From: Akkermansiaceae bacterium
GTDB lineage: Bacteria; Verrucomicrobiota; Verrucomicrobiia; Verrucomicrobiales; Akkermansiaceae
Length of the DNA stretch: 39,741 nucleotides
Assembly: GCA_013041925.1 (NCBI GenBank)
Contig: JABDRB010000019.1
Span: forward strand, 1 to 39,741
Reading direction: 5' to 3'
The notes beneath the pieces were generated by a model, which saw only the letters and a program-made list of their open reading frames with translations, did not search any database and was not told where the DNA came from. Made by a program: the position numbers and the translations under genes. This document shows positions 18,128-32,644 of this stretch, one piece after another (position 1 is the stretch's first letter; the number at the start of each line of letters is the position of its first letter).

Positions 18128-18344
18128 GGGCGCAAGCGAGTCCATTTGATGTTGCGGGTTTTTTCCAATAGGTAGCTTTCGATGACTGTGTTGAGGAACT
18201 CGCTGCCGCTGTTGCCCCAATTCGGTATATCCTCCGCTCTCGGCTTGACTACCACCAACCAACCTCCTAGAACAATTTCGCACCTTGCCACCATAGCTTA
18301 ATTTAGCCTTCCAGTGGCCGGAATTTCGGGTCCACCCCAAATAA
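18116..18344 (-). pseudogene. Decayed fragment of a DDE integrase-type transposase
   Basis: On the minus strand one frame reads NSGSEFLNTVIESYLLEK then WTRLRPYKKG, closely resembling the 'DNGSEFLN...I.FTRSRPYKKND' block of integrase-core (IS481/ISNCY-like) transposases. Upstream, in another frame, 'GWTRNSGHWKAKL...GGKV' resembles the preceding 'GWTE.RA.W.KG..GV' block. The frame change, the loss of the first catalytic Asp (DNG to NSG) and the absence of the rest of the gene mark it as a relic. It occupies nearly the whole 295-base gap between the pyruvyltransferase and the next sulfotransferase. No terminal inverted repeats were found. Confidence 0.55.
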
Positions 18345-18367
18345 AAGAAAAACTCAGACGCAGTTGC

Positions 18368-18395
18368 TTGATTCGTTTGGCTAAAAAAATATGAA
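18368..18395 (+). promoter_or_regulatory. Weak promoter candidate before the second sulfotransferase
   Basis: TTGATT (18368-18373) and TATGAA (18390-18395) are 16 bases apart and lie 27 bases before the ATG at 18423, in an A+T-rich stretch to the right of the transposase relic. Each hexamer is a 4/6 match only. Confidence 0.25.
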
Positions 18396-18422
18396 AATCA
18401 TTGACCCGTAGCATCATCATTA

Positions 18423-19121
18423 ATGAGAAAGAAACTAAATAAATTCATCAATCGCATGCGCATCAGCAGCCTTGAAAAACAGCCAAAAGTCTTCTGTATT
18501 TCTATGCAGAGAACGGGAACAACTTCCACTGGCCAGTTTTTCAAGGATCACGGGCTACGCTGGTCAGGGTGGGGTTCTGATAAGCGAAACAACTGGTCAC
18601 AATTATGGGCCCTATGTGACTATGAAAGCATCTTCGCGTCGGAGGAATTTCGCCTTGCCAATGCCTATGAGGATTCACCTTGGTGGTACTCAAAGTTTTA
18701 TGAAGAACTGTATAAACGATTTCCAGATGCCAAGTTCATCCTTCTCAAACGTGATCCTTCCAAATGGTATAAATCTGTATTAAGCCGCGCACAAGATGGC
18801 GTCATGGGAGCTGTAAACACCCATTGCATGAATTATGCAAGAGAAGCAGAACTGAATCAACTTATCGAGGCTGGGACTCCGCAGAAGCAACTGACCAGCG
18901 TCTCAGGAGAGAAACCAATGAGCATGAAAAATATGGAGGAGCATTATACCACCTGCTATCTCGAACACTTCGACAATGCCACGGAGTTCTTTAACAAAAA
19001 CCAGCCGGATGCACTCTATGCTGGGGAACTGGAAGACCCTAAAAAGTGGCAGAAGATTGGTCATTTCTTGGGAATAGATGTTGCAGACGACTACGAAAGC
19101 CACAAAAATGATGGTCATTAA
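18423..19121 (+). CDS. Sulfotransferase family protein (P-loop)
   Basis: 232 aa. A basic N-terminus of about 20 residues precedes 'KVFCISMQRTGTTSTGQFF', where QRTGTTS (29-35) is the 5'-phosphosulfate loop. 'FPDAKFILLKRDPSKWYKSVLS' gives the 3'-phosphate region with Arg and Ser. The 'MQRTGTTS' form with a C-terminal 'Y..H...' segment resembles the Sulfotransfer_4-like group rather than the two other sulfotransferases in the window. The acceptor is unknown. The next gene starts two bases after the stop, so both are probably one transcript. It lies right of a transposase relic, which could mark a junction within the island. Confidence 0.85.
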   Translation: MRKKLNKFINRMRISSLEKQPKVFCISMQRTGTTSTGQFFKDHGLRWSGWGSDKRNNWSQLWALCDYESIFASEEFRLANAYEDSPWWYSKFYEELYKRFPDAKFILLKRDPSKWYKSVLSRAQDGVMGAVNTHCMNYAREAELNQLIEAGTPQKQLTSVSGEKPMSMKNMEEHYTTCYLEHFDNATEFFNKNQPDALYAGELEDPKKWQKIGHFLGIDVADDYESHKNDGH

Positions 19122-19123
19122 TT

Positions 19124-19999
19124 ATGGGATGCTACATCCATCAATTTGACAGAAAACTTACAGCTATCCTCAAAACCTATAATCAAGAGGACACTGTTGA
19201 GGCTGCTGTGGAATCTATGCTGAATCAAAATACTAATTTTGACTACACCATTATGATTCTCGATGACTGTTCTACAGATAAAACCTCAGCTATTTGTAGT
19301 GATTATGCAAAGAAGCACCCTGAGAAAATCGTCCACATATGTCAGAAAAAAAACCTTGGAGTAACTAGCAACTACCGAGACGGCCTGAATCGCATCCGAT
19401 CTTCCTTCATAGCCGTACTCGAAGGGGATGATCTGTGGACAGATGCCAACAAGCTACAACTGCAAGTCGACGCAATGGAGGAGAATCCGGAATGCTTGAT
19501 CGGGGGGCATGATACCCTTGTTGTGAATCTTAACACTGGAAGAAGATCCCTGTTCATAGGAGGAAGAGCAGATACGGAGAAGCAAATAATCTTCTCGGGG
19601 CCACCAGGCCCATTTCGCATGCACCCTTCCTCCCGAATTTACCGCAATCACGACTGTCTACGCAATCTTCCCAAAAACCTACTTTTTGACACACATTTGT
19701 ATCGGCATTTTATGATGTTGGGCAAAGGGATTTACCTCAACAGAAATATGTCAACTCATCACATCACGGGCCAGGGCTTCTGGTCCGGCCGCAAAAAGAT
19801 CGACCGCAAGATTTTCTCAATCAATCTAGCTTATGAAGCCTGTCGCTACTACAATTTCGAGCAAGATAGGCTAATCTGTAAATCAAAAAATTTTCTGGGG
19901 CTATTGAAAAGTATGTTTGGACCCGCTATTGGTTGGAAAGTCTATCACAGCACCTATTTATTTTATTTGAAACTGAGGAAAATATTCAGTCACAAATAA
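19124..19999 (+). CDS. Glycosyltransferase family 2
   Basis: 291 aa. The GT-A fold is evident: 'LTAILKTYNQEDTVEAAVESML' (about 12-33), nucleotide-binding DDCSTD (47-52), and EGDDLW (100-105), the metal-binding DXD region. The C-terminal 'THHITGQGFWSG' segment is seen in GT2s that add sugars to surface glycans. There is one weakly hydrophobic C-terminal helix but no clear transmembrane segment. The donor is unknown. It follows the sulfotransferase by two bases and overlaps the convergent third sulfotransferase by ten. Confidence 0.88.
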   Translation: MGCYIHQFDRKLTAILKTYNQEDTVEAAVESMLNQNTNFDYTIMILDDCSTDKTSAICSDYAKKHPEKIVHICQKKNLGVTSNYRDGLNRIRSSFIAVLEGDDLWTDANKLQLQVDAMEENPECLIGGHDTLVVNLNTGRRSLFIGGRADTEKQIIFSGPPGPFRMHPSSRIYRNHDCLRNLPKNLLFDTHLYRHFMMLGKGIYLNRNMSTHHITGQGFWSGRKKIDRKIFSINLAYEACRYYNFEQDRLICKSKNFLGLLKSMFGPAIGWKVYHSTYLFYLKLRKIFSHK

Positions 20000-20868
20000 T
20001 CAAAGCGACACAGAGATTCTTTGGCTATCTGGTTGAAACATTGAATTTCTTCCGGACTGAGAAGCCTTGAATAGCGACCTAGCGTGTCCGCGCTAACCGG
20101 ACCCAAGGTCCTTTTTTTCCAGTCCATGGTCTGAGAAGGCTCAAGTCCCTGCTCCATGTTTTTTTTATGAAAACTAAGCATATTCGGATCAAAATCAACC
20201 GCAAGCCATTGGCAGAGACCCTGCATTTGAGGCAAGCAATCGGTAACGATGTCTTCATAACGAACGCGAAAGGTATTCTTCGGCTTTATCATGGCCGATA
20301 GCGAGGCCTCCACGGTAGAAACATTTTTGTGCCATTGCTCTGCAATCTCACCAGCCTCTGTCGGCAAATCGGGTTTAAAAGAGCTGGCGCTCTCTAACTC
20401 CATGACTTCCCTGTAAGAACAGGCGACATCGCGACCGTCCCGAACAATATGAATAAAACGAGCATCGGGAAACAGGCTGGCAATTTCGTTGATGTAGTGA
20501 ATGTAGTAATTGTTTTTATCGCCCCAAAACTTGTATGTTTTTCCTGTTTTATGAGCATAAGCAGCGATGACCGCATCACATACTCTTTGATATGAAGAGC
20601 CAAATCTGATAATATTTTCCTTCAGCAAATGTTGATCCAAGCCCCAAGTATCCATTTTTTTTGAGCTCAGGATTGCTCTTACGAGTTCATCCACTCGAGC
20701 TGGATTCTTAGCATCTCTGATACTCCAGTCAGCAAAAGCAGGCGCGTTCCATAAAATGTAGCCACACTCCGGCGGTACAAGAATATCTTGGTGACTGGCC
20801 AGCAACAAACGTAGTAAAGTAGTACCAGAGCGCGGTGAACCGAGGATAAATAGTGGCGGATCACACAT
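19990..20868 (-). CDS. Sulfotransferase family protein
   Basis: 292 aa. 'PPLFILGSPRSGTTLLRLLL' near the N-terminus holds the 5'-phosphosulfate loop GSPRSGTTLL (10-19), and 'RFIHIVRDGRDVACSY' the 3'-phosphate region, both canonical for bacterial Sulfotransfer_1/3 enzymes. The C-terminal part has 'RVRYEDIVTD', typical of the fold, and 'RYSRLLSPEEIQCF'. The substrate is unknown. It starts two bases after the stop of the DegT aminotransferase on the same strand, so the two are transcribed together; this raises the possibility that an amino sugar made by that enzyme ends up in the sulfated glycan. Confidence 0.92.
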   Translation of the reverse strand: MCDPPLFILGSPRSGTTLLRLLLASHQDILVPPECGYILWNAPAFADWSIRDAKNPARVDELVRAILSSKKMDTWGLDQHLLKENIIRFGSSYQRVCDAVIAAYAHKTGKTYKFWGDKNNYYIHYINEIASLFPDARFIHIVRDGRDVACSYREVMELESASSFKPDLPTEAGEIAEQWHKNVSTVEASLSAMIKPKNTFRVRYEDIVTDCLPQMQGLCQWLAVDFDPNMLSFHKKNMEQGLEPSQTMDWKKRTLGPVSADTLGRYSRLLSPEEIQCFNQIAKESLCRFDYL

Positions 20869-20870
20869 GG

Positions 20871-21983
20871 CTACTCCTCAGCTACTTGATGCACTAAGTC
20901 TATTACAAGCTGCTGCCGTCTACCGAGCTCGGGAAAAATAGGCAGGCAGAGAACAGATGCCGCAGCCGCCGAGGCTATTGGAAGATTATCCGGCTGAGCC
21001 GAACGCAAATGCCTGTAAGGAGAAAATTCACTGACCAAAGGGGAGAAATATTTGCGGGCGTGAACGCTATTCACTTTGAGATAATCATAGAGTTGATCAC
21101 GGCTTAGAGGAAAAGAGCTTTCAACAAGAATTGGATAATAACCATAATTGGCCTTCACCGATGCAATTTCTGTTGGAAGCCTCAGGCCTTTTACATTTGT
21201 GAATGCCTGAGTATATGCCTGAGCAATCAATTGACGCTTTAAAATCTGCTCATCAACTGATTTCAACTGCATCAGCCCGAAGGCTGCTTGAAATTCATTC
21301 ATTTTACCGTTACCGGCAATATTAACTGTTTGCTCCTCGTTCAGAATACCAAAGTTTTTTAACTGATCAATGCGAGTTTTGGTCTCGACGTCGTTGGAAA
21401 CAATTGCCCCGCCCTCCAGCGTATTAAAAACCTTAGTCGCGTGAAAACTAAGCGTGGTTAAATCGCCCTTCGTCAAAATAGAATCCCCATTCTGCTCTAT
21501 GCCAAAAGCGTGGGCACCGTCATATATGACTTGCAGCTTGTAGCGGCGTGCAATCGCTTCGATGGCTTCGGTATCACAAGGTCTGCCGTAGACGTGAACA
21601 GGCATAATCGCACTCGTTTTATCTGTGATGAGTGCTTCGATTTTTGATGCATCGATGTTGAGCGTTTCTGGGTCGATATCACAAAAAACTGGTGTACTTC
21701 CATGTAGACTGATGGAATGAGAAGTAGCGACAAAAGTAAAAGGCGTGGTGATGACTTCCCCCGAAACACGAAGGCAGTTTAAGGCCGTCTGCAAGGCAGC
21801 CATTCCGTTACAGAAAAGGTTTAAATAAGGAACTTTTAGATAAATAGCCAGCTGCTCTTCTAGCTGCTGGTGCATTTGTCCGTTGTTAGTGAGCTGTTTG
21901 TTATCCCAGATTTTTTGTAAATAAGGTAAAAAATCTTCTAATGGAGGCAGACTCGGCTGAGTAACAAAAACAGGCTTACTCAC
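20871..21983 (-). CDS. DegT/DnrJ/EryC1/StrS-family PLP aminotransferase
   Basis: 370 aa from the GTG at 21983, a start supported by a strong Shine-Dalgarno sequence. The family pattern is complete: 'NGMAALQTAL' (59-68), 'TTPFTFVATSHSI', 'CDIDPETLNID', 'VIYDGAHAFG' with Asp 155, and the PLP lysine in SFHATKVFNTLEGGAI (Lys 184). These enzymes usually put an amino group on a nucleotide-linked 3- or 4-keto sugar for O-antigen, capsule or glycoprotein sugars. The partner dehydratase is not in this window. It is followed two bases later by a sulfotransferase. Confidence 0.93.
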   Translation of the reverse strand: MSKPVFVTQPSLPPLEDFLPYLQKIWDNKQLTNNGQMHQQLEEQLAIYLKVPYLNLFCNGMAALQTALNCLRVSGEVITTPFTFVATSHSISLHGSTPVFCDIDPETLNIDASKIEALITDKTSAIMPVHVYGRPCDTEAIEAIARRYKLQVIYDGAHAFGIEQNGDSILTKGDLTTLSFHATKVFNTLEGGAIVSNDVETKTRIDQLKNFGILNEEQTVNIAGNGKMNEFQAAFGLMQLKSVDEQILKRQLIAQAYTQAFTNVKGLRLPTEIASVKANYGYYPILVESSFPLSRDQLYDYLKVNSVHARKYFSPLVSEFSPYRHLRSAQPDNLPIASAAAASVLCLPIFPELGRRQQLVIDLVHQVAEE

Positions 21984-21994: not shown

Positions 21995-22485
21995 GGTGAA
22001 ATGTTAGCGTTGTCTGACAGGATTGATGATGAAATCATAAACAACCTGCGTCGCTCAAGTGATAGATTCTCCGATGTTATTCGTGTTCGAGTGGGGCTGC
22101 TTTTCATAATACTGGATCATGTGCTACGATTCTCTTATAAACTTTCTTGCAGAATTAGATGTATTCAAGATGGATTTACTTTGACAACTTAAACTGGAAT
22201 ATATTTTTTACGAGGAAATAGGATGTTGTGGCGAAAATGCGCCTCTCCCATGTCTGTAGTAGATTTTATCTCATCCCAGCTGGGCTGCTTATGCTATGGT
22301 GCTTGCTGGTTCTATTTGGGTAATTCATTTCGCAACTCACGCCAAGCCCTAATTTTACGAGTGTTGTATTTGTCAGAGCTAACTCACCGTGGATAGTGCA
22401 ACACGCTATCGATATTATATCATTGACCTCGCTCTTCCAGATGCCGAGTATGACGTGCCGTAACTTATCACTACATAGAGAAATC
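21995..22485. other. Long A+T-rich divergent intergenic region
   Basis: About 490 bases between the GTG of the aminotransferase and the ATG of the outer-membrane protein. I find no convincing gene: the frames present lack recognisable protein patterns. It holds a small dyad ATGAT-N3-ATCAT (22026-22038), TTGACA (22181) with TATATT at 22200 (spacing only 13), a short GGCG-N6-CGCC dyad (22230-22243), and TTGTCA-N16-GATAGT (22370-22397), a weak promoter for the rightward gene. It also marks the right edge of the A+T-rich island. Confidence 0.5.
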
Positions 22486-23397
22486 ATGAAAATTAAAATA
22501 TCCTCAGCGATTACATTTGTTGGCAGCCTTACCTTTGCCCTGTCGAGCCACGCAGGTGAGTCCGTCTCCGCCAAAGGTGGAATTGAGATCGTGCCGTCAG
22601 CGCCCGAGTGCTCTCCTTATGAAATCCAGCCGCTTTTTTCGCGTTATGCCCAAACGGCGAAGCGTTGGACATTGAGAGCGGGTTATCGTTCGTTTAACGA
22701 TATGGAGCTTCAGGAGGCTGACCATGTGGACGGGACGATTCAAGATTTTGAGTTGATCATGCCATTGAGCGATCGTTTGCAATTGCGCTTTTATTATCCT
22801 TACAGCACCGATGCGGATGGGCGAACCACGGGATTGACGGAGCGTGAGATCGGAATCGATGGCAATGGAGGTCTGCTGGATTTCCCCAGCCTGATTCTGG
22901 ATTACCAGTATAAAAAAGCGACATCACCTGGCGACTACAACCTCGCTGCCTATGTGGGTGTTGGAAATGTGCGTCAATTTCTTGAAGCCAAGGATAAATT
23001 ATCTGGAGGTATTGACCGGTATAACCACCGTGGCTCCGCGTTGCTTGTTGGTTTCAAGGCAGACAAGCAGCTGAATAACTGCTGGACGTTTGTGGGGAAC
23101 GTTGGCGGTCGTTACTACTGGGACTCCGATGATATTCACCCGAATGGTGGATCGGATATGTTTGTCCTGATCGAAGCATCCGCTGCCTTTATCTATGCTC
23201 CTGAGAACGCATGGATTTATCCCGCTGTTGAAGTGCTTTATCAGGGGACTGTAAGCGAATATAATAGCGTTCAGGTGGTGCCTCAGGTGATCATTCCTTT
23301 TGGCGATCACGTGGATCTGAATGCGGGAGTCAGTGTGGGCCTACTTGATGATGGTCCTAGCACCGAGGCTCGTGTGCAGCTGAACCTCCGTTTCTAG
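22486..23397 (+). CDS. Outer-membrane beta-barrel protein, function unknown
   Basis: 303 aa from the ATG at 22486, chosen because it begins a clear signal peptide (MKIKISSAITFVGSLTFALS, cut near SHA-GE); an upstream in-frame ATG would add 30 unrelated residues. The mature protein alternates polar and hydrophobic residues in many short strands ('WTLRAGYRSF', 'LQLRFYYPYS', 'YNLAAYVGVGN', 'WTFVGNVGGRYYWDSDD') and ends LNLRF, a C-terminal Phe typical for BAM insertion. No exact family is recognised; general resemblance is to small transporter-like barrels. The protein could serve the neighbouring envelope genes or be unrelated. A Rho-independent terminator follows. Confidence 0.75.
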   Translation: MKIKISSAITFVGSLTFALSSHAGESVSAKGGIEIVPSAPECSPYEIQPLFSRYAQTAKRWTLRAGYRSFNDMELQEADHVDGTIQDFELIMPLSDRLQLRFYYPYSTDADGRTTGLTEREIGIDGNGGLLDFPSLILDYQYKKATSPGDYNLAAYVGVGNVRQFLEAKDKLSGGIDRYNHRGSALLVGFKADKQLNNCWTFVGNVGGRYYWDSDDIHPNGGSDMFVLIEASAAFIYAPENAWIYPAVEVLYQGTVSEYNSVQVVPQVIIPFGDHVDLNAGVSVGLLDDGPSTEARVQLNLRF

Positions 23398-23470: not shown

Positions 23471-24805
23471 ATGGATCAGTCGCAAAAACGATTCCGGCTT
23501 ACGGTGGAGGATACGGCCTCGGCTGATTACTCGAAGAGTGATGAGCTGGTTGTAGAGACATCGTTGTGTCTCAGGCACCTGCCTGGCCGGAGAACGGTTT
23601 GGAAGGCATTATGTCAAGGGACGGATGTTCTGCTCAAGGTGTTTGACCCGCATCCAAAACAAAGGCGTGATGTCGACCGCGAGTGGAATAACACATCGAA
23701 GTTGTATTCTGCGGGGTTGTCCATTCCGGCGCCTTTATTGAGGGCAAAGGTGGACGGAGGATTGGTGGCGGTGGTGTATACCTTTATCGAAGGGGGGCGG
23801 ACGCTTGACGAGGTGCTTGTGGATGCTGACGAGGCGACTCAGTCAGAGTGCATGAGGCAGTTGGTGGTCATGCATGTCCGGCAACATGCGTTGGGGAGTT
23901 ATCAGAGTGATGACCATCTGGGAAATTATCTTTGGAGTGGAGGTCAACTTTATCTGCTGGATGCTGGATCATGTGTAATGAAGCCGAACTCACTGGGTTT
24001 GGATGATCGGGTAAAGAATATGGCCATGCTCACAGCCAATATTCCGATGGCTCAACGGTCGCACTTTGAGCTGGCCTATTCCCATTATGAAGAGCTTTGC
24101 CTTGAGGAGATTGACCCGCGTGGATTTAAGGTCGCGATGGCAAGGGCCGTGCCTGAGGCGGTGAGTAAGAGGTTAGGGAGTTATCTCCGAAAGACAAGAA
24201 GGTCATCGAGTAAGCTGGAACATCAAGATTTCCCCAGTTTGAGCTGGCATGCATGCCGAGATATGGATGCTGCCCTTAAAGGGAAACTCGTAGAGAACCC
24301 AGAACAGTTTTTTAAGGGTAAGGCGCGATTAGGTTCTCGCTCTGAACAAGGAGAACGATATGCTGAGGTTGATATTGAGCATGAAGGGCGATCCTACGTG
24401 TTGAGACGTTATGACCAACCATCGCTCGGTTACCGGTTATGTCATTTTTTCTCATTCCCGCGCGCGTTGCGTGTCTGGAGTAACGGACACGCACTTAGGA
24501 TGGTGGGTATGGCCTCGACCCGGCCGGTCGCCTGTATGATTTACAAAAAATGGGGGATGCAGGCGGAGAATTATGTGCTTTTGGAAAAGCCCGCGGGTGA
24601 GCCCCTTCCTACGCTTGATGAATCAGATCTCGAGGAGGATGTGAAAGCTCAGCTCGTTAGCGTCTGGCGCGATCTAAAATTCTTGAGAGCGAGCCATCAA
24701 GGGGTCATAGCCAGCGACTTGATGGTGGACGGCAACGGCCGGCTGAGCTTGGTCGACACGGCGAGCATTCGCTTTCATCAATCGGCAGCGGATGATGCCC
24801 AGTAG
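23471..24805 (+). CDS. Tandem Kdo/WaaP-fold kinase protein of the LPS-core locus
   Basis: 444 aa from the ATG at 23471. It contains two kinase-like halves. The first (about 30-230) has 'LPGRRTVWKAL', Lys 56 in VLLKVF, the loop 'YQSDDHLGNYLW' with Asp 147/148 and Asn 152, and LLDAGS with Asp 164. The second (about 285-435) has 'YVLRRY' (Arg where the ATP lysine is expected), 'RALRVWSNGHALRMVGMASTRPVAC', 'GVIASDLMVDG' with Asp 416 but no Asn, and LVDTAS with Asp 429; this half looks degenerate. Large two-domain kinase-like proteins also occur in the Pseudomonas LPS-core cluster. It probably phosphorylates a core sugar. Its start lies just behind a terminator without a Shine-Dalgarno sequence. 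Confidence 0.78.
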   Translation: MDQSQKRFRLTVEDTASADYSKSDELVVETSLCLRHLPGRRTVWKALCQGTDVLLKVFDPHPKQRRDVDREWNNTSKLYSAGLSIPAPLLRAKVDGGLVAVVYTFIEGGRTLDEVLVDADEATQSECMRQLVVMHVRQHALGSYQSDDHLGNYLWSGGQLYLLDAGSCVMKPNSLGLDDRVKNMAMLTANIPMAQRSHFELAYSHYEELCLEEIDPRGFKVAMARAVPEAVSKRLGSYLRKTRRSSSKLEHQDFPSLSWHACRDMDAALKGKLVENPEQFFKGKARLGSRSEQGERYAEVDIEHEGRSYVLRRYDQPSLGYRLCHFFSFPRALRVWSNGHALRMVGMASTRPVACMIYKKWGMQAENYVLLEKPAGEPLPTLDESDLEEDVKAQLVSVWRDLKFLRASHQGVIASDLMVDGNGRLSLVDTASIRFHQSAADDAQ

Positions 24806-24870
24806 GCCGAAGGCTCACCGCCCCGCCGTGGGGAGACCCTTGTGAACGGAGCTGATGAATCTGTGCTATG

Positions 24871-25707
24871 CTATGCGGGAGAGTCAGGCTTTACAAAAGG
24901 ACGTTTTTTCTTACGTCGAGGCACCAGATCGAGGATGATCGCTTTTGCCTCGGGGGTGAGTTTGTCGATACCGAGGTATTTTTTTAAGAACCAGAGGCAA
25001 TCTCGGGCTGGCCACTCGGGGATGTATTTAAACATCGTTCTGAGATCATGGTCGATCATCTTGCGTGATCGCGGTCCTGGATACTTGGTGCGTTCGAGAT
25101 CGATGAGCGTGGTGTGGATTTTCTCTGGGACCTCGACGGGTGCACCGTCGACAAACGGGATGTTGAGATAAAGATGTCTGCCGTAGAGGGCATTGTGGAT
25201 CATGCCGGCTTGGTGCATTTTTTTGATAACTTTGAGGATCGAGTCGAGGATGGCGAGCCGCTGGGCGCGTGGCGGCCAGCCATGTTGTGCATACCAGCGG
25301 GCAAGTTGGTCGATATCAGACATGTCGACAAGGGATTCGGAGACAACAATACACTGGTGGTTGCCATTCTTTTTGCGGCTGGCGAAGTAGACGATTTTCA
25401 TCGTCGGGATGCCGGCTTCCTGAAGGCGTTGGTAATTTCGCCATTCGAGCTCAAAGGTGGGAACCTTCCTCAGCTTGAGAATGAGGTTCGTCGGGTAGTG
25501 GTTTTGCTGCCGTTTCAGGTAGATGGTCTTACCGTTGTCCAAGTGGATGCGGCAGACGTGGCTCCACGACGTGTTGTCGTCCTTGCCTCGGAAGTTCCCG
25601 ACTTCGACTTGTTCTCCTTCTGCATCCCACCATGTGTCGAAATCAGAGTATCCCGCTTGTTCCAGCGCAGTTGTCCATTCGGGATCGGTAAATGACTTGT
25701 TTGGCAT
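24871..25707 (-). CDS. Lipopolysaccharide kinase InaA/WapP-like
   Basis: 278 aa. Features of the InaA branch of the Kdo/WaaP kinases: 'YLKRQQNHYPTN' with Lys 65, 'FELEWRNYQRLQEAGIPTMKIVYF', 'MHQAGMIHNALYGRHLYLN' (166-182) and 'TLIDLERTKYP' with Asp 203. In the catalytic loop the usual HRD Asp is replaced (His 171-Asn-Ala-Leu-Tyr), with 'LYGRHL' as in InaA ('LY.KH'). InaA/WapP-type proteins lie in LPS-core loci and probably phosphorylate core heptose or act as scaffolds. A Lys/Arg-rich tail (RRKKKRP) follows. It is convergent with the tandem kinase gene and upstream of nothing on its own strand except the hypothetical and WaaG-like genes, probably in one leftward transcript. Confidence 0.85.
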   Translation of the reverse strand: MPNKSFTDPEWTTALEQAGYSDFDTWWDAEGEQVEVGNFRGKDDNTSWSHVCRIHLDNGKTIYLKRQQNHYPTNLILKLRKVPTFELEWRNYQRLQEAGIPTMKIVYFASRKKNGNHQCIVVSESLVDMSDIDQLARWYAQHGWPPRAQRLAILDSILKVIKKMHQAGMIHNALYGRHLYLNIPFVDGAPVEVPEKIHTTLIDLERTKYPGPRSRKMIDHDLRTMFKYIPEWPARDCLWFLKKYLGIDKLTPEAKAIILDLVPRRKKKRPFVKPDSPA

Positions 25708-25796
25708 GCAATGAGGTTCGGTCGCTCACATTCCATGGTCAAGAGGAATTGAGGAAATTGAAGCTGCAATTGATTGTTTGCCCGTTCTTCTTAGTT

Positions 25797-26405
25797 TTAC
25801 TGCTTATTTTGGGCGGTATAGCGGTCGACGGCTTGGGTCCATTGTTCGATGTTGTTGCCGTGCTCTAGCTCCAGGTGGAATTCAAGCAGCTCGACAGCTT
25901 CGTCGATGACCTGGGTGTGGGTGCCTTGGATGACCTTGAGGGCGGTAGTGAGTTGAATGGTGTCGGGTCGATTCAGGGTGTCGTCAAGGATGGTCTGGAT
26001 GAGGGGCTCGGGTAATTCCTTATTCTTGGATCCCATCACGCTTTGAATGAGTTGGAAGTCCTCGTCGTCGACCAGGTTGAGGGCATGCTCGAGGGCATCA
26101 TTGCGGACCGAAATAGGGGCGTCGGCGTCGAGGACGATGCCAAGGAGGAGACGGGTGGCTTTTTCGTTGGAAATGGAATCGGAGCCGAGGACGAAATCGA
26201 TTTTTTCCTCCCACTTCATCGAGGTGGCTGGAGTAGGCTGCCGCTGGGGTGTCCGGTTGTCACGGGCTTGGTTGCCTTGTTCCGGTGGTGTCCCCGTATG
26301 ATCGCGGGTGGCAGGATCGTCTTGATGGTTCGATGCGATGATGAGGAAGATGGCGATCACCAAAAGGATGGCGGCGATGGCGATGGTGAGAGGTTTGGAT
26401 TTCAT
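25797..26405 (-). CDS. Hypothetical membrane-anchored protein with a helical periplasmic domain
   Basis: 202 aa from the ATG at 26405, which begins a single transmembrane segment (about 5-26: 'LTIAIAAILLVIAIFLIIAS'). A Pro/Gln-rich linker (30-60) leads to a helical region (about 60-195) of repeated 30-residue helix pairs resembling HEAT-like folds. No family is recognised. The frame stays open to 26510, but there the codons include the C9 tract and low-complexity residues. It lies between WaaG-like (stop at 26494) and the InaA-like kinase on the same strand, so it probably belongs to the LPS-core operon. A tract of nine C (coding strand) sits 10-18 bases before the ATG, where a ribosome binding site would be. 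Confidence 0.6.
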   Translation of the reverse strand: MKSKPLTIAIAAILLVIAIFLIIASNHQDDPATRDHTGTPPEQGNQARDNRTPQRQPTPATSMKWEEKIDFVLGSDSISNEKATRLLLGIVLDADAPISVRNDALEHALNLVDDEDFQLIQSVMGSKNKELPEPLIQTILDDTLNRPDTIQLTTALKVIQGTHTQVIDEAVELLEFHLELEHGNNIEQWTQAVDRYTAQNKQ

Positions 26406-26414
26406 AGCTGGAAT

Positions 26415-26423
26415 GGGGGGGGG
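26415..26423. repeat. Homopolymer tract of nine G just upstream of the hypothetical membrane protein
   Basis: Nine G on the plus strand, C9 on the coding strand, 10-18 bases before the ATG at 26405. If translation began further upstream the tract would lie within the frame (as Pro codons) and slippage would switch it; with the ATG at 26405 it would alter spacing of the initiation region. Confidence 0.7.
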
Positions 26424-26493
26424 CTTGTGAATGAGAATGACGGACGAGGTGGAAAATGTCTGCTGGGTGCGGAGCTGAGTCAAGTCGGTTGGA

Positions 26494-27591
26494 TCAGTCG
26501 ATGGAGGCACGGATGCGGTCGAGGATCACATCTGCGGTGCGGTAATGATCGGGGTTGGCCGCCCAGGTGAGGGCTTTTTGTTGCAGTGACGGGAGTTTGG
26601 CGAGCATGCCGTTGATTGTCTGAGCGATTTCCTCGGGTGGGCAGTCGTTGCTGAGCAGGTGGCCGCCTGCGTCAGCGACGTGATTAGCGTATCCGCAGGC
26701 GCGTGTGCAGGTGACAGGTAAGCCGTAGGTGAGGGCTTCGACGAGGACCATGCCAGCGGTTTCCCGGCTGGATGGATGGACGAGGAGATCAGCGGCAGTC
26801 ATCCAAGCAGGGATGTTATCGCGTGGTCCCATGATGTGGACGCGGTGGGCAACCCCGAGTAAGTTGGCCAGCTTCTCCAATGGTGCTGGATCGTCCTTTC
26901 CACAGACGGCGAGGTGGATGTGGTCGTCTAAGAAAGGCAGAGTCTCGATGATTTTAGCTACGCGTTTGAGTTTGAAATTGGATCCGACAAAGAGAAGGAG
27001 TTGATCTTCTTCTGAGAGGCGCAGCTCCGTATGGATTTTTTTTCGGGTTTCGCCCTCCGAGGTATCAAGTGAATCGGCTTGTTTGAGCCACGGTGGTAGC
27101 AGAGAAAATCGATCATCTCCGAGCTGATAATGCTGTTGATACGATTGGCTATCTGGTTCGGCGAGGAAAAAAATATGAGTGCGGGCGTCGGGGCCGAAAA
27201 CGAGTTTCTCATTGGTCAGGAAATACCGATATCTGGGAAGGAATCGTGTGAGTGTAGGCTTGTTTGCCTGAAACCCCTCTAGAAAACAGGAGTCGCCACA
27301 GAAGTGGAATGGGGCATTGGGCACCCTGCTGAAGGCGATGGCGCTGTCGAATTTTTCTGAGCTAAGAAAGGGCTGACAGGCATCGGCGAACCTTGCGGCT
27401 TTGCGATGGTTGCTGCGGCCTCCGCTGTTGAGTTCGACTATGGGGATGTTTTTGGGTTTTTCCCCATCCCACTTAGCAACAATCAGAGTAGGTTGTTCGC
27501 CGGCAGCCTGGGCAGCTATCGCGAGGCGGACGGCGTCACGTTGCAGCCCTCCATAGGGGAAATAATGCTGTAGGAAGATGGCGAGCTTCAT
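26494..27591 (-). CDS. waaG: WaaG-like LPS core glucosyltransferase (GT4)
   Basis: 365 aa. The N-terminus 'MKLAIFLQHYFPYGGLQRDA' with GGLQRD (14-19) is the hallmark of WaaG (RfaG), the UDP-glucose:heptose alpha-1,3-glucosyltransferase of the LPS outer core. 'NAPFHFCGDSCF', 'TRFLPRYRYFLTNEKLVFGPDART' and the donor-site 'HPSSRETAGMVLVEALTYGLPVTCT' follow in order. It acts at the cytoplasmic face of the inner membrane. Association with waaP, which phosphorylates the heptose next to the WaaG site, is seen in enterobacteria and Pseudomonas. It is divergent from waaP, with about 100 bases of shared promoter region. Confidence 0.9.
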   Translation of the reverse strand: MKLAIFLQHYFPYGGLQRDAVRLAIAAQAAGEQPTLIVAKWDGEKPKNIPIVELNSGGRSNHRKAARFADACQPFLSSEKFDSAIAFSRVPNAPFHFCGDSCFLEGFQANKPTLTRFLPRYRYFLTNEKLVFGPDARTHIFFLAEPDSQSYQQHYQLGDDRFSLLPPWLKQADSLDTSEGETRKKIHTELRLSEEDQLLLFVGSNFKLKRVAKIIETLPFLDDHIHLAVCGKDDPAPLEKLANLLGVAHRVHIMGPRDNIPAWMTAADLLVHPSSRETAGMVLVEALTYGLPVTCTRACGYANHVADAGGHLLSNDCPPEEIAQTINGMLAKLPSLQQKALTWAANPDHYRTADVILDRIRASID

Positions 27592-27694
27592 GGCGGAGGC
27601 ACGGCCAGCTTCGCCCTGATTAGGGGGATTGCCAAGAGTAATTCTAATCGGCAGTTCTTGACCTAAGCCGCGATGCGGGTTGTGCTGGTTGCGG

Positions 27695-28552
27695 ATGATT
27701 AAGCTGGCCGACGAAATACGGGGTAAATTTTCAGATGTTTTATCGAGTGATGGCGCCTTTGACGAGGTGCTCGTGCTTGAGGGCGAGATTTATCGGGCGA
27801 AGGAAGGCCGTAGAACCCTACGCTTTGAGTATGGCGGGGAGAATTATTTTGCCAAGATCCACATGGGGATTGGTTGGAAAGAGGTTTTCAAGAATTTGAC
27901 GGCTTTCAGGTTACCCATTACGGATGCATCCAACGAGTGGATGGCGGTCGAGGTCCTCGAGCATGTGGGTGTGGATACCGTGAAAATCGTGGGCAAGGGG
28001 AGTCGCGGTTGGAATCCGGCGAAGCGGGAGTCGTTTGTGGTGATGAAGGCTCTCGATGAACTGGTTGAGGTGGAGGATTTCCTGAAAGAATTGGGTGGTT
28101 TGCAGGGGAGGCGGCGATTGGAGCTCAAGCGTGTCATCGTGCGTAAGGTGGCCGAGTCAGCACGGCGGATGCACGCGGCTGGCATGAATCACCGGGATTT
28201 TTACCTGTGTCACTTTCATATCCTTGAGCGTGACTGGTCGGACTGGTCGCCGGAGGAAGATTTTCGATTACCATTGATCGATCTCCATCGGTCGCAGATC
28301 AGATCCCATGTCCCGATGCGCTGGTTGGCGAAGGATTTGGGGGCCTTGCTTTATTCGGCGATCGACTGCGGCATGACCGATCGCGATCTGGTTGCCTTCT
28401 TGCGTGTCTATCTCGGTCGGGAGTGGAAACAACGACTGAGTGACGAGTCAACGCTATGGCAAATGGTGGTGAAGCGGGCCGGAGGGTTTTATCAGCGTCA
28501 CCGAGGTCGGAAGATGCCGTTGCCTGGCGTGTTTCAGCGCTTTGAATACTGA
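27695..28552 (+). CDS. waaP: LPS core heptose(I) kinase WaaP
   Basis: 285 aa from the ATG at 27695 (TTG codons upstream would add five residues). It matches WaaP/RfaP throughout by memory: 'EGRRTLRFEYGGENYFAKIH' with Lys 54, 'GIGWKEVFKNL', 'NEWMAVEVLEHVGVDTVK', the loop MNHRDFYLCHF (164-174; catalytic Asp 168) and LIDLHRSQIR (Asp 196). WaaP uses ATP to phosphorylate the first heptose of the inner core, and this phosphate is critical for outer-membrane stability in Pseudomonas. It is divergent from waaG and its 3' end overlaps the convergent kinase-like gene by 19 bases. No Shine-Dalgarno sequence is visible. Confidence 0.93.
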   Translation: MIKLADEIRGKFSDVLSSDGAFDEVLVLEGEIYRAKEGRRTLRFEYGGENYFAKIHMGIGWKEVFKNLTAFRLPITDASNEWMAVEVLEHVGVDTVKIVGKGSRGWNPAKRESFVVMKALDELVEVEDFLKELGGLQGRRRLELKRVIVRKVAESARRMHAAGMNHRDFYLCHFHILERDWSDWSPEEDFRLPLIDLHRSQIRSHVPMRWLAKDLGALLYSAIDCGMTDRDLVAFLRVYLGREWKQRLSDESTLWQMVVKRAGGFYQRHRGRKMPLPGVFQRFEY

Positions 28553-29193
28553 TTCAGCACCTTCATGAAGCGCTCCTTTTGCTGGGTGTCGGGTTTGAGT
28601 AGGTCGAGATAAGATTCCGGCATACTGGGGAGTCCGGCTGCATTCATACGATCGACGTCTTCAGGGTAACGCAGCGGAAAGGCGAGGTTGGCAGCTCGGC
28701 GGTCGAGGGACACCGGTTGATTGAAGTATTTGACGTCCGTAAAGTCGATCAGACCATACGTGCCGTCGGGCAGCAGGATGATATTGCCGAGGTGGATGGA
28801 GCGGAATAGAATGCCTTTTTCATGAAGGTCAAGGATGTAGGCGCAGAGGCTCGGGATATCCACTTCCCTGGGTGCGTCTTTCAAGAGGTCACGGATGCTG
28901 CTTCCTGGGAGTGACCGATAAGTGACGATCTTGATGTGGCTGCCCTTGACTCGGGCGTGGTTGAGAACCTCGGGGACGACTAGACCTCTTTTGGCGAGAC
29001 GAGTAGCGTTGTTGACAAATCGACGGGAATACGGGTTCAGTGTGGCCGAGGAGAAGAACCCTTTTTTGATGGCCCAGATCTTGGTGATGGTGTCATCGGG
29101 GTGAAGGACAACACAGGGGTAGCCGCCCTGCATGTCGATGGGGGTTCCATTGCGGCAGAGTTCCTTGAGTTGATCCTCGGTGATTATTTTCAC
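28534..29193 (-). CDS. Small Kdo/WaaP-fold LPS kinase-like protein ('toluene tolerance' type)
   Basis: 219 aa. A one-domain kinase fold: 'TITKIWAIKKG' (Lys 38), 'LAKRGLVVPEVLN', 'VTYRSLPGSSIRDLL', then 'LHEKGILFRSIHLGNIILL' (123-141) and 'YGLIDFTDVKYF' with Asp 150. The canonical HRD Asp is replaced (FRSIHLGN); Asn 137 and Asp 150 remain. This pattern resembles a small protein of the Pseudomonas LPS-core cluster often labelled 'toluene tolerance protein'; that link is from memory. The activity may be weak or different. It starts 14 bases after the LtaS-like gene and so closes the leftward operon that begins at priA. It overlaps waaP tail-to-tail. Confidence 0.78.
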   Translation of the reverse strand: MKIITEDQLKELCRNGTPIDMQGGYPCVVLHPDDTITKIWAIKKGFFSSATLNPYSRRFVNNATRLAKRGLVVPEVLNHARVKGSHIKIVTYRSLPGSSIRDLLKDAPREVDIPSLCAYILDLHEKGILFRSIHLGNIILLPDGTYGLIDFTDVKYFNQPVSLDRRAANLAFPLRYPEDVDRMNAAGLPSMPESYLDLLKPDTQQKERFMKVLNQYSKR

Positions 29194-29207
29194 GAAATTG
29201 TTAGTTG

Positions 29208-31208
29208 TTATTCTTTAGGCAGGTCATTGCCCTTGCGCAAGCGCCACCATGAGATGCCGTGGGTCAGCTTGTATCTTCTTTTTGCCGCCTTTAATTCTGA
29301 GGGGAGGGTGTCGAGGTGCTGGCCGTCGAGCGTTTCGATCCGCTTGTCGCGTGTTGCGGCCATAATGGCATTGTCGCCAATGATCCAGAGGCGAGACATG
29401 GCGACATCGCCTTCCTTAGGGTCGAGGATATTGCGACCGATCGCGTGGTATCCGAACCCGGGGTCGGCAGCTAGCTCGATCAGCGTGGCTCCAAGATCAT
29501 AGTGGCTGCCACGGAGGCGTTTCTCGTCGAGGTTCTCGGGGAGGACGCCGGAGCCGTATAAAACCAGCGGGACGGTGGCTCTCTCAAGGGCGATGGGGCG
29601 AGGGCCTGGGAACTTTCGGCTCCAGTGGTCGCCTGTGATAGCAAAGAGACAGCCAGGAACCTTGCTTGAGACACTGCGGACAAAGTCACCCATCCACTTA
29701 TCCGAATACCAGTGGTGACCGAGCGTATGAAGTGAGGCACTACCGTTTTGGAAATCGTTTTCATAAGCGGTAGGCACGGAAGCGAGTGGGCAGCCGACCT
29801 TGTCCATATCGAGGCTGTAGGGTGGGTGGTTGGAGGAACTCAGGACCAAGTTGAACGTGGGTTGATCGGGGTTGAGCTGCTCCTTCATGTAGGAAAACAG
29901 GCGCTCGTCAGAAACCCCCCACTCGTTGGTATCGTGGCCCTGGTCCATGCTCGAGCCCGTGTGGGTGTGATCGAACCCTTGCTCTTTACAAAAATCCTCG
30001 ATACGCGCCCAGCCACCGTAGCCCGCATACCATAAATGAGTTTGGTAGCCGAGTTTCTTCATCTGGCTGGCGATCGCAGTGGGGTAGGCGGGGTCCGTGG
30101 GGCGTGAGCGTTCATTACTGATCACGCCAGCGTCGGCCATGCCTCCGATGATCGTTGCCAGAGACGTCATAGTGCTGCGTGACCCTGGTAGAAAATGTTT
30201 CACATAAATACCGTCCTCGCCGAGTTGTTTAAGTTCGTTGGCGATGTTCCAGTCGGCGTGGGGGTCGAACATCGTCCAGCCGTCGTAGCTTTCCATGACA
30301 AGCAGGAAAATATGGCGCGGCTTCTCTCCCGGGCGCCCTTTCGCGGTGCGACGGAAGGCATCATCGACGTTTTCGATGTTCTGGTTGCCCGCGTATTCAT
30401 GGAATGCTGTGAGGAGGTTTTCTTTTTTTAAATAGCTATCAAGTCCATCGCCAGTCATCAGTTCCTTGTGGGATTTGATGGCGTAGTTCAGTGAGCTGAA
30501 GGGGTTGATGATGCAGCGGTTGAGCACGAGGTCCTTGGTGCGGGAGGCATCTTTTTGCTGCATGGGTCTGCGTCCTAGTGAGCCACGCAGACCGATGGCG
30601 AGCATGACGAGCAGGAGGAGGGTTAATCCGATCCGCGCAATGATGTTGGGCGGGCTCATAGGAGGACGCAGCGGGAAGGGGGCGCGGATCCAGCGTCTGC
30701 CTAAAAAGATGAGGCCGGCGGAGATAACGATCATCACCAGTGAGCCGATGACCACTGGGTAGCTCGTCCAGATGGTTTTGACGATGGCATCGAAGTCGTC
30801 GTAAACAACGCCCAACAAGTTGGCATCGAACTGGTTGTGGTATTCCTTGAAGTAGCCGAGGGTGACGGTGGTGATGATCACCCAGAGGATGGTGAATAGG
30901 TAAGTTATCACGGCGCGTGCGCCATGGGTTGTTTGCTGGGTTGGGACGAGGGTGCCGAGGCAGGCGCAGAGGAAGCTGGGAAGAACGAAGATCGTAGCCA
31001 CTGGCATGTCAAAGCGGAACCCGGTGAAGAACGCGAGGGCGTAGGATGAAAAGGGGGTGTCATCGGTGATGCTGTGCCGGTTCTGCCAGACGAGGATCAT
31101 GCGGGAGATGAAGAGGAGAAAAATAATCCAGAGCCATAGCTTGGAGTCGCGGCCGAGGTGGTGGCGAAAGGTATGCCATCCCTTCGCGGGTGGTTGATTT
31201 GAATGCAT
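29208..31208 (-). CDS. LTA synthase/OpgB-like membrane sulfatase-fold transferase
   Basis: 666 aa. Membrane segments lie at about 24-41, 55-82, 98-120, 150-170 and 190-207. A large extracytoplasmic alkaline-phosphatase-fold domain (about 297-640) begins 'HIFLLVMESYDGW' with metal-ligand Glu 306, has the nucleophile region GSRSTMTSLATIIGG (342-356; Ser 345 or Thr 346), 'YPTAIASQMKKLGYQTHLWYAG' and GDHWSR. This is the architecture of LtaS, OpgB and EptA-related enzymes that transfer phosphoglycerol or similar groups from lipid donors. In a Gram-negative LPS locus the likely role is adding phosphoglycerol (or phosphoethanolamine) to LPS or periplasmic glycans. The donor and acceptor are unknown. 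It lies in the leftward operon 24 bases after the LpxL-type gene. Confidence 0.88.
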   Translation of the reverse strand: MHSNQPPAKGWHTFRHHLGRDSKLWLWIIFLLFISRMILVWQNRHSITDDTPFSSYALAFFTGFRFDMPVATIFVLPSFLCACLGTLVPTQQTTHGARAVITYLFTILWVIITTVTLGYFKEYHNQFDANLLGVVYDDFDAIVKTIWTSYPVVIGSLVMIVISAGLIFLGRRWIRAPFPLRPPMSPPNIIARIGLTLLLLVMLAIGLRGSLGRRPMQQKDASRTKDLVLNRCIINPFSSLNYAIKSHKELMTGDGLDSYLKKENLLTAFHEYAGNQNIENVDDAFRRTAKGRPGEKPRHIFLLVMESYDGWTMFDPHADWNIANELKQLGEDGIYVKHFLPGSRSTMTSLATIIGGMADAGVISNERSRPTDPAYPTAIASQMKKLGYQTHLWYAGYGGWARIEDFCKEQGFDHTHTGSSMDQGHDTNEWGVSDERLFSYMKEQLNPDQPTFNLVLSSSNHPPYSLDMDKVGCPLASVPTAYENDFQNGSASLHTLGHHWYSDKWMGDFVRSVSSKVPGCLFAITGDHWSRKFPGPRPIALERATVPLVLYGSGVLPENLDEKRLRGSHYDLGATLIELAADPGFGYHAIGRNILDPKEGDVAMSRLWIIGDNAIMAATRDKRIETLDGQHLDTLPSELKAAKRRYKLTHGISWWRLRKGNDLPKE

Positions 31209-31231
31209 GATGATATTGGGGGGAGCTGTCC

Positions 31232-32644
31232 CTAGCGGGGGGTGTCGACTGTCGGCGGCGGGGGGGAGCTGATGCGCTGGATGAAATAATCTAGTCGAGC
31301 GTCATAGCTGGAAGATCCGGCGGCGGGCATGGGGCCGTGGCCTGCGGATTTGGGTGGAGAGGAGAGGGCGAATTGCGGGCGGATACCCGCCTTGGTGAAG
31401 AGGCGAATACCCGTTTTGTCATCTGAAAAATCGAGGGCGCAATCAAACGGCGCGGGCATGGCATCCTCGAGTTTACTGAGTGCGTTTACCGCCAAATGAG
31501 GTGGGTCCTGCGCGTTGATCGGCAGGCAGTGGTCGGTATGGGGGAACTCGCTATGGTGTCCTGTCAGGGTGATGTTCAGATCAGGTCGGCAAGCGCGAAG
31601 GTAGGTAAGCGCCTTGGCCAGTTGTTCATCAGAGATGGTGCTTCCGGAGTGAGCCAGGACGTAAAAGGGTTGGCTGGAATGGTGTGGAGACAGGTTGGCC
31701 TTTCGGGGTGATTGGCCGCGTATTTTCAGGGCGGTTCTTTTTCCTCCGCGCCAGTAGTTGTGCATCCAGAGGACGTCGGCCGGGCTTTCCTTCATCAGTT
31801 TTTCATAGGCGTCGGCGCATTGGGTCGTGATCTGATAGGTGTCCCTTTTGTTTTCCTCGAGAACCTCGATCAGTGGATGCAGGACGACCTTCCATTTCCC
31901 GGGGAAAACGGAGCACATCGAAATGGGCAGGATCGGAGCTTTGGTCTTTCTGTGTAATAAGGCGGGGAGGTTGGTCATCGATGTTTGTTTGCCAAACAGG
32001 GAGACGGTTACGCCGTGTTTGCCTGCGCTCTGGTCCGCGATGCAGCCTAGCGAGCCACCAAGTTTGAGGTGGGTGATGGGTTTGGCGAAGCCGTCCTCAC
32101 GACTGTAAAGTTTGGCGTCTTTACTCTGTCGGCGACGTTTGACTAAGCGGTCGAGCAGTGGGTTGTTGAGAGGCCGGTAGAGTGAGGCGAGGGAGTCAAT
32201 CTCAGGGATGAGCACCTTGAGTTGGGTGAGGATTTCCCAGTTTCCCATGTGGGCGAGTAAAAGAATGCAGCCGTTGCCTTGGTTTTGGGCCTCGAGGAAA
32301 TGTTCGCGGCCCACGACCTCGACGCGCTGCTTGAGTTCCTCATCGCTCAGGGTGGAGGCGGGTATGCTCGCGATCAGATTTTGTCCAGTGTGGCGGAAGG
32401 TTTTACGGGTAAGAGCCTTGATCTCCTGCATGCTCAGTTGCTCGCCGTAGACGATGCGCAGGTTGCGCAGGACGACGTTCCTGCGGCGGTTCATCAGGTG
32501 ATACGCGATCTGGCCGAAGCCCGACCCGATGACGCAGACAACTTCCATCGGGAGTAACCTGAGGACAAATTCAAACACCCGGTAGATGCCGTAGGTGATG
32601 GAGTCACCGAGGGACGGTGATGGGTTGTTTGAATTTTTGTTCAT
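31232..32644 (-). CDS. LpxL/HtrB-type lipid A acyltransferase with a GT9-like C-terminal extension
   Basis: 470 aa. Residues about 20-310 are a complete lysophospholipid/lipid A acyltransferase: 'RRRNVVLRNLRIVYGE', the catalytic 'LLLAHMGNWEILT' (His 132, Glu 137), 'LYRPLNNPLLDRLVKRRRQ', 'CIADQSAGKHGVTVSLFGK', 'VLWMHNYWRGGK'. It adds a secondary acyl chain to lipid A. Residues 310-470 are extra: 'PFYVLAHSGSTISDEQLAKALTYLRACRPDLNITL', 'PFDCALDFSDDKTGIRLFTKAGIRPQFALSS' resemble the N-terminal half of GT9 (heptosyltransferase) enzymes, but the donor half is missing. It is 15 bases downstream of the OppF-like gene and 23 before the LtaS-like gene. The GT9 resemblance is an inference. Confidence 0.85.
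   Translation of the reverse strand: MNKNSNNPSPSLGDSITYGIYRVFEFVLRLLPMEVVCVIGSGFGQIAYHLMNRRRNVVLRNLRIVYGEQLSMQEIKALTRKTFRHTGQNLIASIPASTLSDEELKQRVEVVGREHFLEAQNQGNGCILLLAHMGNWEILTQLKVLIPEIDSLASLYRPLNNPLLDRLVKRRRQSKDAKLYSREDGFAKPITHLKLGGSLGCIADQSAGKHGVTVSLFGKQTSMTNLPALLHRKTKAPILPISMCSVFPGKWKVVLHPLIEVLEENKRDTYQITTQCADAYEKLMKESPADVLWMHNYWRGGKRTALKIRGQSPRKANLSPHHSSQPFYVLAHSGSTISDEQLAKALTYLRACRPDLNITLTGHHSEFPHTDHCLPINAQDPPHLAVNALSKLEDAMPAPFDCALDFSDDKTGIRLFTKAGIRPQFALSSPPKSAGHGPMPAAGSSSYDARLDYFIQRISSPPPPTVDTPR

Follow-up and report, generated by a model that had tools for sequence, protein, structure and literature searches.

Among described lipopolysaccharide (LPS) core systems, waaP, wapP and wapQ are named as kinases of one cluster, and WaaP is called a heptose kinase and described as a drug target (PMC6147952). 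LpcC, WadC and LpsB are described as LPS-core mannosyltransferases (PMC2912274, PMC3349745, PMC6171495, PMC3568095), and the Brucella core is presented as having no acidic groups except 3-deoxy-D-manno-oct-2-ulosonic acid (Kdo) and the lipid A phosphates (PMC6171495). The lipooligosaccharide (LOS) of Akkermansia muciniphila is reported to contain three Kdo and one heptose (PMC13135019, PMC12527988). Here we analyse a stretch of 39,741 nucleotides (the window; JABDRB010000019.1), contig 32 in our numbering of a 3.28-Mb draft genome (GCA_013041925.1, coded G000) from the family Akkermansiaceae (Verrucomicrobia), and the core locus that it carries, with waaG, waaP and further kinase-fold genes. 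From the observed gene content, homology, phylogeny and co-occurrence, we lean, by a little, towards an LPS-core phosphorylation locus acting on an inner core that is free of heptose and probably built on mannose.

The locus is similar to the Pseudomonas core phosphorylation locus, whose sugar-phosphorylating genes serve to toughen the outer membrane; both cluster homologous genes for WaaG, WaaP, the WapQ-position kinase and the tandem two-domain kinase. It differs in having neither waaF nor waaC, nothing closely homologous to the WapP-position gene, a divergent gene order, an LpcC-type glycosyltransferase of family GT4 instead, and a degenerate second domain in the tandem kinase. With the LpcC/LpsB/WadC-type cores of Rhizobium, Sinorhizobium, Brucella and Francisella it shares an LpcC-type GT4 together with the Kdo transferase WaaA, and no heptosyltransferase in the locus, but it adds kinases and WaaG. 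A. muciniphila is of the same family and has a Kdo inner core, but its LOS has heptose, and the 87 genomes with a match to the WaaP model, out of 383 from the phylum, include none of the genus g3, which we take to be Akkermansia.

A first-pass annotation of the window had listed WaaG, four kinase-fold genes including WaaP, an LtaS/OpgB-like protein and an LpxL-type acyltransferase, in rearranged and mostly divergent or convergent order, as a Pseudomonas-like set in a probable verrucomicrobial host. Profile, PDB and model matches recovered every one of these genes where it had been placed, the order is as described, the kinase set has homologs in the core loci of Pseudomonas and Rhodocyclales, and the host does belong to the Akkermansiaceae. 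The heptose core that the annotation predicted is where our reading departs from it.

Heptose genes in WaaP-bearing Akkermansiaceae

We examined 36 genomes of the family, seven of which carry WaaP (G000, G008, G010, G011, G012, G013 and G022), using thresholds of E ≤ 1e-6 or 1e-20 for gmhA, 0.001 or 1e-40 for hldA and 1e-10 for hldC. No gmhA was found at E ≤ 1e-6 in the six relatives of G000 that have WaaP (83–98% complete). Their hldA matches reach 24–42 bits, against about 302 bits in G000, and their hldC matches 50–57 bits, or none at E ≤ 1e-10, against about 163–165 bits; the weak hldC matches are of the same strength as those of unrelated nucleotidyltransferases of G000. The Kdo transferase WaaA is present in all seven genomes. 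Heptose genes are not enriched among the WaaP genomes of the family (gmhA in 1/7 vs 3/29, p = 1), and the coupling between WaaP and heptose genes breaks down in the family of the window.

Candidate heptosyltransferases of family GT9 were sought in the same genomes. No GT9 protein was found genome-wide in G022, and the other five relatives have one each, always off the WaaP contig and scoring over the Pfam but under the heptosyltransferase II cut-off (in G008 at L053:3307-4356, beside metG). None of the seven genomes has a GT9 gene on its WaaP contig, none above 50 bits was found in 13 stretches from these genomes, and in G000 only contigs 19 and 22 have GT9 matches. The locus scan for GT9 and ADP-heptose genes was by single-sequence phmmer at >50 bits, which weak GT9 proteins would escape. 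The heptose core of the first-pass annotation is thus not borne out by the six relatives, which have WaaP without gmhA and with generic hldA and hldC matches, by G022, which is without GT9, or by G000, whose heptose operon lies in a Wzx/Wzy-like cluster (see below). The check that it had proposed, for a heptose pathway in the genome, gives a divided answer, present in G000 and seemingly absent from the six relatives with the WaaP/WaaG locus.

The single GT9 gene (L053, L061, L062, L063, L067) recurs in the genus of the window even where the heptose pathway seems missing. Separately, contig 271 of G002 holds a 509-aa open frame with diverged likeness to HldE, and there is no gmhA match in G002.

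A pair of GT4 glycosyltransferases

The LpcC-type GT4 enzyme has a single PDB match under 1e-30, 5i45_A (E = 1.1e-43, 202 residues), which we take to be the LpcC of Francisella; no paper naming 5i45 was found in a literature search. It aligns over its full length with alphaproteobacterial homologs (97% coverage, about 40% identity). In a plasmid collection seven of the 1017 matched records are covered to at least 80%, all of them alphaproteobacterial and 36–40% identical. In two alphaproteobacterial records that we opened, the GT4 gene directly follows greA, near lrp-trxB, and is labelled only 'glycosyltransferase family 4 protein'; the greA-GT4...lrp-trxB context is, we presume, that of the lpsB/lpcC locus. 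Each of the six further WaaP genomes of the family has a homolog 64–85% identical to the window protein, and none was seen in the stretches of G021 examined.

Each of the seven WaaP genomes of the family has the partner GT4 gene, as do G002, G021 and G034. Across the 36 genomes the counts for both, WaaP alone, GT4 alone and neither are 7/0/3/26 (3/29 of the others; Fisher p = 1.4e-5, uncorrected for relatedness), and among the 26 genomes that are at least 90% complete p is 1.2e-4.

WaaP and WaaG

The WaaP protein scores 289.8 bits with the RfaP equivalog model NF011703 (cut-off 170) and 11.5 bits with the KdkA model, and matches the P. aeruginosa WaaP structure 6dfl at E = 2e-59. Key residues and their roles, including substrate binding by Y165, H168 and R191, were taken from PMC6147952. 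All nine (K51, E78, H161, R162, D163, Y165, H168, D188 and R191) are kept in the eight window-type sequences, seven from the family and one from L106, so these enzymes are probably active and bind a similar sugar. Compared with 102 other WaaP sequences, the window type has Met for Thr at window residue 122 (8/8; Thr in 101/102 others), His for Leu at residue 180, two after H168 (8/8; His in 4/102 others), and Ala for Arg at residue 239 (7/8; Arg in 100/102 others).

Eight of 58 relatives have WaaP above the cut-off, seven of them Akkermansiaceae, and among 14 control genomes E. coli alone does. Across the phylum it is patchy, being over the cut-off in 57 of the 383 genomes. For phylogeny we used a set of 116 sequences, which excluded matches below 150 bits, the short sequence of L089 and the duplicates L004, L104 and L105, and thinned it by 40 to 76. 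In the resulting maximum-likelihood tree, 14 verrucomicrobial sequences form a clade (100/99), comprising the seven from Akkermansiaceae, L106, L107, L110, L109, L112, L116 and G050. Because WaaP lies within a verrucomicrobial clade, this tree indicates that it is old in the verrucomicrobial lineage and no recent gift from Pseudomonas. Of the 'ancient transfer or deep ancestry' put forward earlier, old ancestry therefore holds.

Two other histories of WaaP were rejected. Recent transfer from Pseudomonas is ruled out by the clade standing apart from Pseudomonadota. A single origin of all WaaP in the phylum is unsupported, since 19 of the 21 sequences from other families form a second clade (99/96; f27, f32, f35 and f37) and the two f38 sequences fall outside both verrucomicrobial clades; the 21 genomes were thinned from 30 loci returned, and G095, G227 and G291 were not included.

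WaaP also occurs, in other families of the phylum, as the C-terminal part of 672–686-aa open frames (L075:1474-3492, L092:1483-3525, L089:247-2307), perhaps a fusion with a glycosyltransferase. Weak matches to the RfaP model occur in proteins of about 750 aa (frames of 687–838 aa) in several families of the phylum (G385, G344, G380, G393, G297), which by sequence appear to be a large kinase-domain protein.

WaaG aligns nearly over its full length with E. coli WaaG (2iv7; residues 3–353 of 365), and the entries 8b5q and 8b5s follow at E ~1e-56. In a quick tree of 42 sequences, from a thinned list without matches below 150 bits or 200 residues, seven window-type WaaG sequences share a branch 1.89 changes per column long; one of the seven belongs to G021, a genome without an above-cut-off WaaP. 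The phylogenies called for by the first-pass annotation thus place WaaP in an old verrucomicrobial clade and window-type WaaG on a long branch of its own. We read the WaaP substitutions and the WaaG branch as possible signs of a changed acceptor and not as proof of a new substrate.

Kinase-fold companions of WaaP

By structure prediction the locus has four kinase genes with five kinase domains, because the models of the two Pfam-poor proteins match kinase structures and the larger one repeats the kinase order twice. This larger protein, the tandem kinase, has no Pfam kinase match and only weak NCBIfam matches to Bud32 and KdkA (KdkA 23.5 bits). Its AlphaFold (AF2) model, made from a homolog alignment, has a predicted local distance difference test (pLDDT) score of 90.8, kinase-fold matches and the order of kinase elements repeated twice. 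Homologous open frames (47–109 bits) were found in 54 of 80 named WaaP loci, which are the best of 565 confirmed in a contig scan for WaaP. The earlier call of a tandem two-domain kinase is upheld by the model, with the qualification that in G000 the second domain has lost its HGD...N catalytic motif and C-terminal tail. Both are kept in the three full-length family copies that we read, so that the loss is confined to G000 among the four, and the tail motif was in no frame of 24641-24900.

We take the order of the Pseudomonas core locus to be waaF-waaC-waaG-waaP-wapP-wapQ-(PA5006 type); the order is seen in L164. The PF06293 kinase matches the WapQ-position gene of Pseudomonas-type loci at 80–92 bits and the WapP-position gene at 15–19 bits, so that of the previous label 'InaA/WapP-like' the InaA/Kdo family stands and the likeness to WapP does not. 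Among named loci it scores highest (120 bits) with the Rhodocyclaceae gene that immediately precedes waaG in L177.

The small kinase has a weak APH match under the cut-off by hidden Markov model and 12.7 bits with KdkA, and homologous open frames (80–105 bits) occur in 13 named loci, eight of them of Rhodocyclales type. Among its many fold matches is WbdD, the O9a terminator kinase, which likewise has a kinase fold and phosphorylates mannose of an LPS glycan, but acts at the end of the O-chain and is fused to a methyltransferase. A fold match common to many kinases is no evidence of substrate.

In the loci read, the WapQ-type kinase and the two-domain kinase are both present in G000, G008, G012 and G013, G011 and G022 have a shorter, one-domain relative of the tandem kinase, and the small kinase is in G000, G010, G012, G013 and G022.

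The weak KdkA matches of the tandem and small kinases, and the presence of WaaA in all seven WaaP genomes, would be in keeping with kinases that act in KdkA fashion on Kdo and not on a hexose, with WaaP now using Kdo, or a sugar next to it, as its acceptor. However, those matches are far under the KdkA cut-off of 142, and WaaP itself fits RfaP and hardly KdkA. We consider Kdo an improbable acceptor for the set as a whole.

Evidence weighed against a heptose-free core

A range of observations speaks against a heptose-free, mannose-based core. Contig 19 of G000 has an operon GT9-hldA-gmhA-hldC-gmhB (gmhA 203.7, hldA 302.6 and hldC 165.4 bits), from which the genome of the window can probably make ADP-heptose. 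Across the phylum WaaP goes with hldA, which is found in 54/57 genomes with WaaP and in 224/326 without (p = 9e-6, uncorrected for relatedness, from two match lists compared by eye; the WaaP genomes without hldA are G022, G222 and G283). In the co-occurrence tables hldA stands for matches above 180 bits, with G002 counted at 189.5.

These findings, together with the nine conserved residues of WaaP and the Kdo and one heptose reported for the same-family A. muciniphila LOS (PMC13135019, PMC12527988), would suit an ordinary phosphorylated heptose core, in which the contig 19 operon makes ADP-heptose, the GT9 enzyme attaches it, and WaaP and WaaG act as in Pseudomonas. However, the operon looks unlike a core locus because it lies on a separate contig among Wzx/Wzy-like and phosphonate-type genes. 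Its neighbours (L049:9276-19285) are a flippase, two Wzy_C proteins, a GT61 and a GT2 enzyme, and the same cluster has a phosphoenolpyruvate (PEP)-mutase/cytidylyltransferase fusion and a thiamine pyrophosphate (TPP) enzyme. By its gene content the cluster perhaps specifies a phosphonate-bearing, heptose-containing Wzx/Wzy surface polysaccharide rather than core. In the six relatives, moreover, WaaP, WaaG and the GT4 pair persist where gmhA has no match and hldA and hldC only generic ones. We regard the ordinary heptose core as unlikely, while holding it the most serious of the alternatives.

The absences themselves come from draft genomes, which can miss genes. In some genomes of other families that carry WaaP and hldA, gmhA is matched at no better than 1e-21 to 1e-30, or not at all at 1e-20, and a diverged isomerase might therefore escape such searches. 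The relatives might then make heptose by a diverged or non-homologous route, nothing in the core having changed; the weak or missing gmhA beside strong hldA in those other families, and the one GT9 retained by five of the six relatives, fit such a route. Against it, hldA and hldC are also of generic strength in the six relatives, and G022 is without GT9. We think it very improbable.

The remaining points concern how far single lines of evidence reach. A low GT9 model score does not discriminate, because G015 and G023, which bear heptose genes, also fall under the heptosyltransferase cut-off. Local absence of GT9 is weak evidence, because 29 of the 80 named WaaP loci (including L104 and L105, and with two from the WaaP genomes of the family) are also without a GT9 or ADP-heptose gene above 50 bits, and it is the genome-wide searches that count. 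The presence of the LpcC-type gene in 7/7 WaaP genomes supports the mannose core, and its non-detection in a 20.8-kb stretch of L106, whose WaaP is of the window type, weighs against it. The gene is also found in G002 (partial), G032 and G034, none with WaaP over the cut-off, and G032, in which heptose genes are present, has a 139-aa piece of WaaP. The p values of the GT4–WaaP association ignore relatedness, and the 102 comparison sequences of WaaP include many near relatives. The WaaG of G008 and G012 is of a different type (branch 0.83), and two proteobacterial WaaG sequences have branches as long as that of the window type or longer. The set of companion kinases differs between the WaaP genomes of the family. 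Finally, no LPS chemistry was found in the literature for any member of the genus of the window.

Proposed assembly of a mannose-based core

Setting these points against the heptose genes of the relatives and the GT4 pair, we still give some preference to a heptose-free core. With more reserve, and short of favouring it outright, we propose that one branch of the Akkermansiaceae swapped inner-core heptose for mannose, the LpcC-type pair replacing WaaC and WaaF while WaaG, WaaP and a varying set of kinases stayed in place and were adapted to the new sugar. The ancestral state may have been heptose, because in the same WaaP clade L109, L112 and L116 have two heptosyltransferase-like genes beside waaP (both GT9 by Pfam in L109), and about 3 kb separate waaP from gmhA in two genomes of the same class, G095 and G227. 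In G023 a 10-kb stretch holds both hldA-gmhA and an LpxL-like gene.

Judging acceptor, sugar identity and order of action from gene content, assembly might run as follows. WaaA would add Kdo, and the LpcC-type enzyme would add mannose to Kdo in place of the heptose added by WaaC. The partner GT4, WaaG or both would extend the core with further sugars. WaaP and the companion kinases would then phosphorylate manno-configured core sugars or Kdo, restoring an anionic, cation-bridging layer in the role that phosphoheptose has in Pseudomonas, and MsbA would flip or export the product. Mannose and L-glycero-D-manno-heptose have the same ring and differ beyond C5, where heptose has a seventh carbon; since the ring is the same, a heptose kinase could shift to mannose with its active site not rebuilt. 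WbdD is an example of a kinase-fold LPS enzyme that phosphorylates mannose (PMC3482155).

Locus architecture and neighbouring genes

The core locus extends leftwards beyond the kinase block, where gene order is a mix of divergent and convergent, to the MsbA-like gene at 12219 (Table 1). Across the WaaP loci of the family, two of which (G010 and G011) are interrupted where contigs stop, the GT4 pair is at one end, variable cassettes are in the middle, and WaaG, WaaP and LpxL are at the other end in varying form; MsbA or a neighbouring M48 gene is near the GT4 pair in six of the seven genomes.

Table 1 Features of the core locus, in window coordinates
Feature	Position	Strand	Evidence and remarks
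MsbA-like lipid A/LPS flippase, ABC transporter	12219..13952	+	TIGR02203 MsbA_lipidA 470 bits, below cut-off 602; best of 185 families
GT4 glycosyltransferase, LpcC/LpsB (Kdo-mannosyltransferase) type	13926..14993	-	proposed WaaC replacement
Partner GT4 glycosyltransferase	15010..16077	-	E ≤ 1e-20 in 10/58 relatives
Variable cassette: three sulfotransferases, pyruvyltransferase, GT2, DegT aminotransferase	16584..21983	.	Pfam
Conserved 333-aa protein, left edge of kinase block	22396..23397	+	57–87% identical in L051, L056, L058, L218; no Pfam match
Tandem two-domain kinase, 446 aa	23465..24805	+	homolog of ~480-aa gene after waaP/wapQ in Pseudomonas; second domain degenerate
PF06293 LPS kinase, WapQ type (InaA/Kdo family)	24871..25707	-	PF06293 111 bits
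237-aa protein	25797..26510	-	no assigned family; homolog in G010 only, among stretches read
WaaG-family glycosyltransferase, strongly diverged branch	26494..27591	-	2iv7 E = 8e-60
WaaP/RfaP LPS-core kinase	27680..28552	+	NCBIfam RfaP equivalog NF011703, 6dfl
Small kinase-fold protein, 219 aa	28534..29193	-	AF2 model from a homolog alignment, pLDDT 93.7; kinase-fold matches
LtaS/OpgB-like sulfatase-fold membrane protein	29208..31208	-	PF00884 71.8 bits; 3lxq E = 9e-13
LpxL/HtrB-type lipid A acyltransferase with C-terminal extension	31232..32644	-	PF03279 174.8 bits, residues 20–299 of 470

Close counterparts of the variable cassette are mostly missing from the other family loci read. Its three sulfotransferase-family genes and the pyruvyltransferase gene (16584-20868), lying within an LPS locus, suggest an outer glycan that is sulfated or pyruvylated. 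The LtaS/OpgB-like gene is accessory, being found elsewhere, within the stretches read, in just G010 and L106. An Rfam scan of the window gave no match. At the contig edge, 38683-39729 matches PF01797, an IS200-like transposase.

Implications for the LPS core of the family

Among the titles and starts of abstracts listed by a literature search, WaaP in heptose-free LPS appeared only as E. coli mutants. Searches with most subscription journals outside their scope found no paper on WaaP together with LpcC, and none joining verrucomicrobia, lipopolysaccharide, heptose and WaaP.

Taken as a whole the first-pass interpretation is partly supported, in that the window has a Pseudomonas-like kinase locus of old verrucomicrobial ancestry, probably with a heptose-free core. 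A phosphate-rich core is still a fair prediction, and phosphoheptose is not its likeliest form. Automatic annotation would expect phosphoheptose even of genomes that apparently cannot make heptose. If the mannose-based reading is true, the family would have two core types, heptose in Akkermansia and LpcC-type in sister genera, and would offer a natural test of the acceptor specificity of WaaP and WaaG. The anionic, cation-bridged function of the inner core would then be separable from the sugar that carries it, and these bacteria would have an LPS core that lost its sugar yet retained its phosphorylation machinery.

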